Positions 23,973-41,389 of a stretch of DNA of 46,879 bases are shown here, in pieces. The stretch comes from a virus. Position 1 is the stretch's first letter. Each line of letters opens with the position of its first letter. The notes beneath the pieces are model-generated. The model was not told the DNA's origin. It saw only the letters and a list, made by a program, of their open reading frames with translations, and ran no database searches. The position numbers and the translations under genes are program-made. The stretch lies in the IMG/VR virus record IMGVR_UViG_3300050120_000434, positions 1-46,879 of that record. One strand, written 5' to 3'.

Positions 23973-24284
23973 TTACAGGCCATCATTATCAATATGCGGT
24001 CTTAAAGCTAATAATCCCGAATCTGTCAACGGAATGACCATTGTTTCTTTTAATTTTATCAGTTCCGCCTCTTTTTCCATAAAATACTCAAATACCTTAA
24101 TTAGCATCAAATTTAAATTATCATCGTCGTTGCAAAGCAATTTATACCGACCATTGGTACCGAAATTAACCTGCATAGTGGCTTTGGCCTCTCCGTATAG
24201 TCGCCCCCAGTTCTCACGATCTTCTTGAATTGATTTTACAATCTCCCATATTTCAGGGTTCTTAAAGTCTTTTTCTATCGCCAT
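23973..24284 (-). CDS. Small helical protein, unknown
   Basis: A 103-aa protein opening MAIEKDFKNPEIWEIVKSIQ. It is largely helical with many charged residues, and its middle NLMLIKVFEYFMEKEAELIKL is a likely coiled-coil. No motif is recognised. It overlaps the upstream 24275-24553 gene by 10 nt, so the two are translated from one mRNA, and it ends at a strong terminator. It may be a regulator or DNA-modification accessory, given the neighbouring methylase. Confidence 0.55.
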   Translation of the reverse strand: MAIEKDFKNPEIWEIVKSIQEDRENWGRLYGEAKATMQVNFGTNGRYKLLCNDDDNLNLMLIKVFEYFMEKEAELIKLKETMVIPLTDSGLLALRPHIDNDGL

Positions 24285-24553
24285 TTAGCCAGGTAATAAA
24301 ATTTATTATTATGCTCATTACGCTCAAAAGACACATTCATATCAAATAGCGCTAATTTTAAATCGTCAAACGTATAAGCAACGCCAGGGAACGAATTACT
24401 AAATTTTTCGGCCATGCCGCTTACCGATTCAATTATATCAGCATCTGTCCAGTCTTTAGCCGGCTGAATGACTTGAGCGAACAGATCGCGTATAGCTGGC
24501 CAGTTCTCTGGTTTTTCGTCCTCATCATCTTCGTCATGATATTTTTTGCCCAT
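24275..24553 (-). CDS. Small acidic protein, unknown
   Basis: I place the start at MGKKYHDEDDEDE (ATG 24553, 92 aa) and not at 24589. A perfect -7 box TATATTTG (24564-24557) ends three bases before this ATG, so the mRNA is probably leaderless. The longer N-terminus would lie inside the promoter and the overlapping RNA gene. The rest is helical (DLFAQVIQPAKDW) with FERNEHNNKFYYLAKWR at the end. Function unknown. Its promoter overlaps the divergent RNA promoter, so the two are likely co-regulated. Confidence 0.55.
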   Translation of the reverse strand: MGKKYHDEDDEDEKPENWPAIRDLFAQVIQPAKDWTDADIIESVSGMAEKFSNSFPGVAYTFDDLKLALFDMNVSFERNEHNNKFYYLAKWR

Positions 24554-24576
24554 ACCCAAATATAACCATATCTTTG
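24545..24576 (+). promoter_or_regulatory. Consensus promoter of the small RNA gene
   Basis: TTTG (24545-24548), a 20-bp spacer and TATCTTTG (24569-24576) match the Bacteroidota consensus perfectly. The predicted start is near 24581-24582, exactly at the first base of the RNA stem. The opposite-strand box at 24557-24564 overlaps this promoter. Confidence 0.75.
24557..24564 (-). promoter_or_regulatory. -7 box of the 24275-24553 gene
   Basis: TATATTTG on the minus strand, a perfect TAnnTTTG, three bases before the ATG. A weak -33 (TTTC, 24586-24583) lies 18 bp upstream. Polymerase here and at the opposing RNA promoter could not bind at the same time. Confidence 0.6.
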
Positions 24577-24580
24577 CAAC

Positions 24581-24715
24581 GCGAAACATTCTTCATAACT
24601 ATCCGTGTGCCTTGTCTACTCTCAGCAGATATAGCCCGGACGCATACTCGTCTTCGGGCGAGTTTGTTATGATGAATGTTTCGCAAAAACCTTTTGTCTG
24701 TCCGGGCTTCTTTTT
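24581..24715 (+). ncRNA. Small RNA gene with long stem and pseudoknot terminator
   Basis: No CDS lies here. The transcript (about 135 nt) begins at the consensus promoter. Stem 1: 24581-24599 pairs with 24666-24684, 18 of 19 bp, with one central U-U. A 7-bp hairpin with a UUCG tetraloop spans 24646-24663. A 9-bp stem pairs 24633-24641 (AGCCCGGAC, inside stem 1) with 24700-24708 (GTCCGGGCT), followed by TCTTTTT, a terminator. The two stems interleave, so the RNA would form a pseudoknot unless they are alternatives. The 3' end meets the methylase stop. It does not match an RNA family I know. Confidence 0.65.
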
Positions 24716-25514
24716 AATCTATTGGATAATTAGCCGTCAGCACCTCAATTTTCCTTTTCATATAACCTCCTTTTTTGTTCACTGATACGCCCGATTCCAC
24801 ACTCCACATGTGCCAGTTATGCTGTTTGGCATACTTTAATAATATTTCCGATGGATAAGACGATAACAGGAATTTACCTTTGATCGATGCGATCTTGATT
24901 AACAGGTTTTCAAAGTCCTGCATCGAATAACCATCATAGTGCCCGCAATCGCTATTATAATACGGCGGATCCAAATAAAAAAAGCTTTCTTGAGTATCCC
25001 GGCTGCTGATCACGTATAAAGCGTCGGCGCATTCCAGGTTAACGTTCTGCAGCCTGATGGCAAATTCTTCTGTAAAACGGTCCCGGTTATTAATGATCTT
25101 TTTGGTAGTGGTATTATCCGTTTTATCATAGCCAAACGAGCTATCTAACTGCGCACTGAAACTCTGGGCGCTCAACACCCAAACTGCCCAGGCGCGCTTG
25201 ATCTCGGTAAACATATCCGGATGATTGTAGATCACCGAAGCCTTGCGGTGCAGATCACGGCTGTGCAGCGTTATCCTGATCTCTTTCTCCAGTCCTACAA
25301 AATCATTTTGTACCACCCGGTAAAAGTTCATTAGTTCCTTGTTCGTGTCGTTCAGTACCTCAACCCTGGAGGCTTGCTTTGCAAAAAACACGGCAGCGCC
25401 ACCGGTAAACGGTTCAGCATACAACGTATGCGGCGGAATAACAGATAAAATTTTTGTGGCCAGCTTTTGTTTACCGCCATAATAGCTGATAGGCGTTTTT
25501 AAATTAATTTTCAT
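24714..25514 (-). CDS. dam: Dam-type DNA adenine methyltransferase
   Basis: A 266-aa N6-adenine methyltransferase of the D12 class. It shows SYYGGKQKLATKI (about residues 10-22), the AdoMet-binding motif EPFTGGAAVFF (34-44) and the catalytic DPPYYNS (about 178-184), then FLLSSYPSEILLKY. The usual Dam target would be GATC, but this cannot be proven from sequence. The protein is complete. Phages use such enzymes to escape restriction or to time packaging and transcription. It is separated from the capsid genes by a terminator and converges on the small RNA gene. Confidence 0.9.
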   Translation of the reverse strand: MKINLKTPISYYGGKQKLATKILSVIPPHTLYAEPFTGGAAVFFAKQASRVEVLNDTNKELMNFYRVVQNDFVGLEKEIRITLHSRDLHRKASVIYNHPDMFTEIKRAWAVWVLSAQSFSAQLDSSFGYDKTDNTTTKKIINNRDRFTEEFAIRLQNVNLECADALYVISSRDTQESFFYLDPPYYNSDCGHYDGYSMQDFENLLIKIASIKGKFLLSSYPSEILLKYAKQHNWHMWSVESGVSVNKKGGYMKRKIEVLTANYPID

Positions 25515-32549: not shown

Positions 32550-32837
32550 CTATCCCTTTTTAGGCCAAAAACTAACGCCCTCAGAAGCGCTGATACTGTG
32601 AAACTTCGACGCGCTACTCATTAAAACCTGTAATTCTTCAATACTTACCCTAACCGGTTCTTCCATTCCCTTTTCTAAAAAATCTACGTCCTCCACCATA
32701 CCATGCTCATCGTGCCACAGCTGAACAACCACATACACACGGCCCATGGTAGACTGCCACCAGCTGAACTTGCCGAACAGATTTTGAAACCTGCAGCGCT
32801 CCTTGTGTAATGCTTCTTCCGGCGTGAGGTAATTCAT
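32550..32837 (-). CDS. Last early-operon gene, unknown
   Basis: A 95-aa protein, MNYLTPEEALHKERCRFQNL at the start, with KFSWWQSTMGRVYVVVQLW and acidic EDVDFLEKGMEE. A helix near VSIEELQVLMSS and a short Trp-containing end follow. It overlaps the recombinase by 4 nt. Function unknown. It may modulate the upstream serine recombinase, by position only. Confidence 0.5.
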   Translation of the reverse strand: MNYLTPEEALHKERCRFQNLFGKFSWWQSTMGRVYVVVQLWHDEHGMVEDVDFLEKGMEEPVRVSIEELQVLMSSASKFHSISASEGVSFWPKKG

Positions 32838-33721
32838 ATATTTAAGCTAATTCGCGTATCGGTCTTTAAATAAATATTCCTGCCGTCAGGATTTTTAACC
32901 TTTACATATTCGTCGCCCTGGCTAACAATCTCATATACTTCATTTATTTCGTATTCATCATACGGAAAAAATTTTGTACCAGGTAACAAACCGAACAGGC
33001 TCGTTTCATATTTCCTGGAATGATTCAAAGTAATATTCTCTCTTATGATCTGATGTTTTTGGATAATCTCTAAGCGACCATATTTTGATAAACCAGTATT
33101 GACTTTATTTAATTTGGCTTTTACCAAGGCTGGGCTATCATTAACAAATGAAGCCACGGTTAAACGATGCACGCCGAGTATCCTACCAATAACACTCGCA
33201 GGAACACCTCGGCGTAATAACTCCTCGATTTCAAAATCCCTGCCGGTAAGTTTCTTTTGAGATGATTTACTTCCTTTAGGCCTTCCGAGTATCTGGCCTT
33301 CCGCTTTACGCCTGGCCAGCGCTTCTTTAGTCCGTTGTGAGATCAGCTGACGTTCAATCTGGGCTGATAGTCCGAAAGCAAACGCCAGTACCTGGGACTG
33401 AATGTCGTTACCCAATCTATAATTATCTTTTATGGTATGTACCTGTAATCCTCTTTCCATGCAATTTGAAAGGATACCCATTATTTGCATTAGATTGCGC
33501 CCTATCCTGGATAGCTCAGAGCATATTAATAGGTCGCCTTTATTCATCTTTTTTATCAATGGTGTTATTTCGCGTTTATTTATATCCTTTGTGGAACTAA
33601 TTGTTTCTTCTATCCAGGAATCAACTATATATTCGTTTTTTGTAGCATAATTTAAAATTTCAAACTTTTGATTTTCGTAATTCTGCTTATCTGTGCTAAC
33701 CCTGATGTAACCGTATGTCAT
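32834..33721 (-). CDS. Serine recombinase (resolvase/invertase family)
   Basis: A 295-aa protein. Residues 1-140 are the resolvase catalytic domain: Tyr-x-Arg-Val-Ser9 (MTYGYIRVSTDK) with the nucleophile Ser, and SELSRIGRN near residue 70 with the two Arg residues of the active site. A helical hinge (SQRTKEALARRKAEG) and an HTH (VPASVIGRILGVHRLTV) follow. It then carries an ~85-residue C-terminal extension ending in IYLKTDTRISLNI, absent from short resolvases. It may invert a DNA segment or resolve concatemers. It overlaps neighbours by 4 nt. Confidence 0.88.
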   Translation of the reverse strand: MTYGYIRVSTDKQNYENQKFEILNYATKNEYIVDSWIEETISSTKDINKREITPLIKKMNKGDLLICSELSRIGRNLMQIMGILSNCMERGLQVHTIKDNYRLGNDIQSQVLAFAFGLSAQIERQLISQRTKEALARRKAEGQILGRPKGSKSSQKKLTGRDFEIEELLRRGVPASVIGRILGVHRLTVASFVNDSPALVKAKLNKVNTGLSKYGRLEIIQKHQIIRENITLNHSRKYETSLFGLLPGTKFFPYDEYEINEVYEIVSQGDEYVKVKNPDGRNIYLKTDTRISLNI

Positions 33722-41207: not shown

Positions 41208-41316
41208 TGGCTTACTGATACTTCGCGGTACCATGGGGAAATCAACATACCGGCGGCGCTGCCGATCTCAAAACAATTATTATTACTTAAACCTTATAAA
41301 GAACATTGCGCCTGCG

Positions 41317-41389
41317 CAGGTAAGAAAGGCATCGAACCTTTAACCTTCGGTTTTGGAGACCGACGCTCTACCAATTGAGCTACTTACCC
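41317..41389 (-). tRNA. tRNA-Trp (anticodon CCA)
   Basis: A complete 73-nt cloverleaf read on the minus strand: acceptor GGGTAAG with CTTACCT (one G-U), D-arm GCTC/GAGC, anticodon arm TCGGT-CTCCAAA-ACCGA with CCA, a 5-nt variable loop, T-arm AAAGG-TTCGATG-CCTTT and discriminator G73. CCA is not encoded. It lies between early genes in the operon direction, with a 7-bp hairpin just upstream (41398-41419). Confidence 0.95.

Follow-up and report, generated by a model that had tools for sequence, protein, structure and literature searches.

Organization of the RNA locus

The window, i.e. the complete stretch of DNA analysed here, is a virus record of 46,879 bases with genes for a tyrosine integrase, a terminase, a portal protein, a tape-measure protein and a protease, and no match to a Mu-type transposase was found in it. 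It further contains a tRNA-Trp gene (CCA; 41316-41389, minus strand), a gene for a KAP-family P-loop NTPase near the contig end (44762-46168, plus strand), possibly a defence or accessory gene, and a gene at 32834-33721 whose product matches the DNA invertase and integrase families phrog_125 and phrog_95.

At a mid-genome position a small RNA unit lies on the plus strand, and the genes around it run on the minus strand, so that the RNA opposes the direction of phage transcription, as the sequence-only reading of this DNA had pointed out. Tail-to-tail with the RNA stands a gene for a D12 (Dam-family) N6-adenine DNA methyltransferase (24714-25514, minus strand; Pfam PF02086, 5e-24; phrog_56), for which the match to NCBIfam TIGR00571 (2.4e-23) is under the cut-off of that model. 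At the other end, the start region of a 92-aa gene of unknown family (24275-24553, minus strand) overlaps the RNA promoter (the earlier reading spoke of two overlapping promoters), with its start codon beneath the promoter at 24553. A search for relatives of this neighbour found none, and it is thus not a conserved partner of the RNA.

The small RNA gene itself spans about 135 nt from the predicted start to the end of the T-run (24581-24715, plus strand). Its large stem P1 (24581-24599 with 24666-24684, both arms assigned by fold and covariation) begins at the predicted transcription start, where an 18/19-bp stem had been described; 18 of the 19 positions pair and one is a T-T mismatch. Inside P1 lies P3, the 7-bp hairpin with UUCG loop noticed before (24646-24663). 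The 9-bp stem P4 has its 5' arm AGCCCGGAC within the P1 loop (24633-24641) and its 3' arm GTCCGGGCT beyond P1 (24700-24708); the arms interleave with those of P1 and are followed by the terminator tail TCTTTTT (24709-24715), which on the opposite strand overlaps the stop codon of the methylase gene, and this arrangement is read in the sequence just as it had been proposed. The earlier inventory missed the family of relatives described below and the mini-hairpin P2 (24607-24636), which is clear as GGCU...AGCC in relatives, weak and divergent in the window. P2 competes with P4; its 3' strand doubles as the beginning of the P4 5' arm.

Folding of 24545-24715 gave -51 kcal/mol versus a shuffled mean of -31.2 (z -5.0), and the hairpin alone gave -45.3 versus -22.3 (z -7.8); no shuffled sequence equalled the native one in either comparison. 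As in an intrinsic terminator, P4 is a GC-rich stem with a T-run directly behind it. With the P1 3' arm lying in its loop of about 58 nt, P4 differs from an ordinary terminator hairpin, and T-runs are poor in some relatives. The topology, together with a P1-P4 linker of 6-15 nt in members from the topology scan, allows a putative H-type pseudoknot, which the long P1 of some members would strain.

The promoter had been called perfect. A TTTG (24545-24548, plus strand), a weak candidate for a -33 element, is indeed separated by N20 from a Bacteroidota-type -7 box, TATCTTTG (24569-24576, plus strand), at a place where the family carries TAnnTTYG. The wording was nevertheless too strong: this pattern occurs twice in the window versus 1.26 times expected, and the match is therefore not significant alone. 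In 49 relatives a TAnnTTYG box, itself a requirement of the topology scan by which they were found, lies 1-6 nt 5' of the stem, most commonly as TATATTTG. A TTG at a spacing of 19-21 nt was present in only about 4 of these 49, so the -33 part is not conserved.

Relatives and covariation of the RNA

Relatives of like topology and mostly different sequence were found in about 100 viral contigs, and also in prophages of Pedobacter, Mucilaginibacter and Arcticibacter, the lysogens with the RNA including Mucilaginibacter lappiensis ATCC BAA-1855 (L037) and Arcticibacter pallidicorallinus (L035). Membership was defined by a -7 box, a P1 of at least 12 bp at the start, a loop-to-tail P4 of at least 7 bp and a T-rich tail; the window copy, read in L001, has all of these and a topology score of 20. 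At loci fetched via the methylase, the RNA unit stands just behind the methylase gene on the opposite strand, with other P1 sequences. A covariance model built from four of the loci found every other one, matching the window at 5.6e-16. A second model, based on 17 sequences, added further copies, some of them in front of the methylase. By sequence and predicted fold, the RNA is a member of a large, widespread and previously unannotated family in Bacteroidota phages.

In an alignment of 31 sequences, which is fitted to the covariance model, all 23 modelled pairs showed double changes and 94.4% of cells were paired, compared with 59.4% in shuffles; the native alignment surpassed all 500 shuffles and all slid versions. 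For P1, double changes were seen in 12/12 modelled pairs and 98.1% of cells were paired. P4 lies outside the model; seven of its nine pairs showed double changes with 95.4% of cells paired, none of 500 shuffles was as good, and P4 covariation was also assessed on 17 sequences. At positions beside P4 that the search pattern leaves free, 98 of 102 were Watson-Crick, whereas 2000 shuffles reached 84 at most. Compensatory changes were thus seen in P1, P2, P3 and P4, with P2 alternating between GGC/GCC, GAC/GUC and GGU/ACC. Uncompensated variation of the paired arms in homologues had been named beforehand as evidence against the RNA; the arms do compensate, and covariation strongly supports the prediction that the small RNA is structured, has a gene of its own and includes an interleaved stem resembling a terminator.

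The strand assigned here is favoured by an excess of G-U over A-C in P1. Since a count over the whole of P1 is biased by the scan, the pairs were recounted outside the scanned part, where the excess was modest (37:20, p 0.03). Minimum free energy folding of whole hairpins gave no strand preference.

Two loci illustrate how these RNAs change. In L182 and L184 the methylase genes are 85% identical at the DNA level, whereas identity between their RNAs is only 55%, which looks as if the RNA had been swapped or were diversifying fast. A decayed copy (L057:1501-1644; G200:C1:2672320-2672463) has both P1 and P4 broken, and only the last part of the adjoining methylase gene is left. This locus reads as a natural control, in which a decayed methylase accompanies a decayed RNA. 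In the patterned class (L261-L311, apical loop and tail) P4 is CCUCC/GGAGG, the letters of anti-SD and SD; this is probably chance, because other members use unrelated letters.

Orientation towards DNA-modification genes

Across 1.83 Mb of loci, a sequence-free descriptor (-7 box, P1, loop-to-tail P4 and T-run) matched 57 times, compared with 7 times in locally shuffled sequence. The 49 good matches were all antisense to the neighbouring methylase, 28 of them behind and 21 in front of it, locus counts being inflated through shared descent. In the first class the RNA usually lies within a few bases of the methylase stop codon, in the second its promoter is about 20 bases from the methylase start codon. 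The methylase tree requires at least 6 changes between the two placements; the antisense orientation has therefore been kept through several moves. Common ancestry of the two classes is weakly suggested by their architecture and by weak model matches.

Independently of any gene, all viral contigs were scanned for a DNA pattern drawn from the in-front class and covering its apical loop and tail. Among the 51 contigs matched, 47 had a modification-type gene on the promoter side, antisense to the RNA in every case (47/47); two further contigs encode Mom-like proteins (phrog_1384, 4e-43) and the last two had too little flank. All 49 loci with enough flank thus carry a DNA-modification-type gene beside the RNA on the opposite strand. 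P1 was present in 46 of 49 testable loci. On the far side of the RNA stands the last gene of the preceding run, co-directional with the modification gene and ending about 20 bases from the RNA tail in most loci. Placement of an RNA gene opposite to an adjacent target gene, by which a cis-antisense RNA is recognised, was accordingly seen in 49/49 topology matches and in 47/47 matches of the gene-blind scan.

The first kind of D12 methylase stood beside only 7 of the 51 matches. The other partners were a second D12 type, a C5 methylase, a thymidylate-synthase-like protein, an ABC-ATPase with a GNAT protein, and combinations of these. The partner genes as a whole belong to at least five unrelated families. 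A constant association with the D12 methylase was dropped as search bias, since the gene-blind pattern found other modification genes, and the partner of the RNA is DNA modification in general rather than one protein family.

Within these loci, L267, L306 and other loci at the place of mom carry an ABC-ATPase gene followed by a GNAT gene, both assigned to phrog_11143 (unknown function); we regard the two as a candidate DNA-modification pair. In L265 and others of L261-L311, a short thymidylate-synthase-like protein is encoded at the partner place, often beside a D12-type gene, and may make an unusual base.

Phages and genomes that carry the RNA

Several carriers encode a Mu-type transposase (PF09299), in L258 followed by an AAA ATPase of MuB type. 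In such Mu-like carriers the RNA and the modification gene lie near the end opposite the transposase, where Mu carries mom. This right-end position of the modification gene in a transposable phage applies to several relatives; it does not apply to the window phage. The window phage, and probably also the carriers L010 and L022, belong to another phage type, judged by terminase-like genes beside the cassette and no Mu-type transposase match, so that the RNA accompanies the methylase outside Mu-like phages too.

In Flavobacterium phage fF4 and Winogradskyella phage Peternella_1 (both Winoviridae) the RNA lies between the methylase and the preceding gene, and no RNA is annotated in these gaps of the two records. 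For fF4 and related prophages, a DNA-methylase gene close to the right end has been described, and the fF4 study likened it to mom (PMC7761591). The RNA is common to fF4, Peternella_1 and the window phage, although the latter is of another type than the fF4-like transposable phages.

The RNA of several prophages sits near the phage end. Repeated TTTAAA-containing motifs, possibly transposase-binding sites or end repeats, occur upstream of the RNA in L007, L009, L012 and L018, near contig or prophage ends. Judged by translation only, the gene just past the RNA in L034 (7039-7932) looks like what is left of a host enzyme gene disrupted by the phage; transposable phages, which insert at random, would be expected to leave such remnants.

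In a sample of Sphingobacteriaceae, 5 of 400 genomes had the RNA, all beside a methylase or its remnant. Models and patterns gave no matches in 395 Bacteroidota genomes sampled across the phylum, a result that, with such narrow queries, says little beyond rarity.

Possible function of the RNA

The constant position of the RNA, antisense beside a DNA-modification gene, suggests control over when a potentially harmful gene turns on. As the best explanation, which in our judgement could as easily fail as hold, we propose that the RNA is an antisense riboregulator acting on the DNA-modification genes of phages, a counterpart to the layers of control on mom in Mu. The -7 box promoter would be read by the main RNA polymerase of the host, in the lysogen and early in infection, and P4 would act as a terminator of the loop-tail (pseudoknot) type. 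Until late in infection, expression of the modification gene would then be held down by the RNA or by its transcription as such, through convergent transcription and through base pairing with the leader or trailer of the modification mRNA, to which the RNA is complementary. In the in-front class, mRNA coming from the preceding genes would carry the full RNA complement as a leader; in the behind class, to which the window copy belongs, the complement would be an mRNA trailer or an intergenic part. Of the earlier suggestion that the RNA could regulate late gene timing or the methylase, the second part gains weight from the invariable antisense linkage, as far as sequence can tell; late timing has gained no separate support.

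Some observations count against control of the modification gene by the RNA. In the strict scan 82 of 134 methylase relatives had no RNA, of which a relaxed scan recovers a number. Contact with the trailer only, as in the window, is a less usual place for control. The linkage may also partly reflect the mom-like end of transposable phages as a site of accessory genes.

A structured RNA that acts in trans (as anti-defence RNA, host regulator or immunity RNA against incoming phages) and merely rides in the anti-restriction locus is doubtful, if still deserving attention; it would be antisense only because it needs an early promoter of its own outside the late operon. Its own promoter box fits this idea, as do the richness of the locus in anti-restriction modification genes of unrelated families and a complex conserved fold whose sequence can diverge wholly between close relatives, like RNAs that determine specificity. 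However, there is no conserved single-stranded seed for a common target, and the orientation does not vary between the two placements or among unrelated partner genes, a constancy that a trans-acting RNA does not need. We consider it unlikely that the unit is transcription punctuation with an inert RNA product, in which promoter and terminator insulate the modification gene through convergent or divergent transcription. Promoter and T-rich end are constant parts, and the RNA ends abut the stop codon of the preceding gene; yet insulation needs no covariation in P1, P2 or P3, and every modelled pair covaries.

Strand exchange between P2 and P4, set by a ligand or protein and deciding termination or stability, would turn the RNA into a conformational switch. 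P2 (GGCU...AGCC) covaries and shares the AGCC strand with P4 in both classes; the P4 5' arm opens with AGCC, and the 3' end of P4 repeats GGCU, the P2 5' strand, so that the exchange is built into most members. Against a switch, which we hold to be quite improbable, stand the weak P2 of the window copy and the absence of a downstream sense gene for read-through control. Very improbable indeed are chance inverted repeats or an element acting at the DNA level, such as a cruciform or a phage end: P1 is a near-perfect inverted repeat and the RNA lies near the phage end in several prophages, but the fold z-scores, the covariation, the fixed spacing of promoter box and T-run, the 57 topology matches versus 7 in shuffles and the G-U excess in P1 all speak for an RNA, and the window copy sits mid-genome.

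For the antisense riboregulator, a wider version can be put forward only tentatively, as one that we would sooner expect to fail. The family would be a general control cassette for unrelated modification chemistries (N6A, C5, Mom and thymidylate-synthase-like), with a pseudoknot terminator and P2/P4 strand exchange making termination or activity conditional. Silencing of phage DNA-modifying anti-restriction enzymes until they are useful is, to our knowledge, well studied only for mom in Mu. If the proposal is true, Bacteroidota phages would have a general solution to this task in a small RNA that accompanies many unrelated modification genes, and the RNA would be a strong case of a terminator built by loop-tail pairing. 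It could then also serve as a marker for finding new DNA-modification genes, e.g. the ABC-ATPase and GNAT pair (phrog_11143).

Comparison with known RNAs and systems

Against Rfam 15, at gathering as well as permissive thresholds, only the tRNA of the window scored above threshold, so the earlier statement that the RNA matches none known to that reader holds for this collection. Seven relatives compared with Rfam likewise gave no match, including to RF02278 and RF01715, and BLAST of the RNA in annotated phages returned chance matches only. The best sub-threshold match was Betaproteobacteria_toxic_sRNA (RF02278), a weak one over the terminator arms (24.1 bits versus a gathering score of 50). 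Pedo-repair (RF01715) and the GUCCY-hairpin are candidate RNAs reported from Bacteroidetes, Pedo-repair from Pedobacter (Weinberg 2010, PMC2864571). Pedo-repair matched neither the window nor the seven relatives; the GUCCY-hairpin is listed without an Rfam entry in the table of PMC2864571 and hence falls outside the Rfam comparison. A riboswitch does not fit the layout, as the plus strand downstream of the RNA is antisense to the methylase, in relatives as in the window. A retron, a CRISPR-type RNA and a type III antitoxin RNA were dropped, no matching partner protein being present among the neighbours examined.

Control of mom in Mu involves Dam methylation with OxyR, the activator C and the translation factor Com, and we know of no separate structured small RNA at this gene. 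In several relatives, though not in the window phage, the RNA-linked modification gene shares with mom its place at the right end of a transposable phage, and a need for tight control would be common to both. Mom is toxic if produced early or in excess, and its negative control in Mu is elaborate (PMC4461284), which suggests a comparable need for control at the RNA-linked modification genes. For the mom promoter region, several RNA polymerase sites were reported (Balke 1992, as cited in PMC4461284).

Among cis-encoded antisense RNAs of mobile elements are CopA, RNAI, Sok and the c4 antisense RNA (RF01695). Like these, the RNA described here is small and highly structured, has its own predicted promoter opposite the presumed target and can drift in sequence along with that target. 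Unlike these, it has no Rfam match, its loop-tail stem P4 is interleaved with P1, with the terminator merged with the putative pseudoknot, and it is tied to DNA-modification genes of many families.
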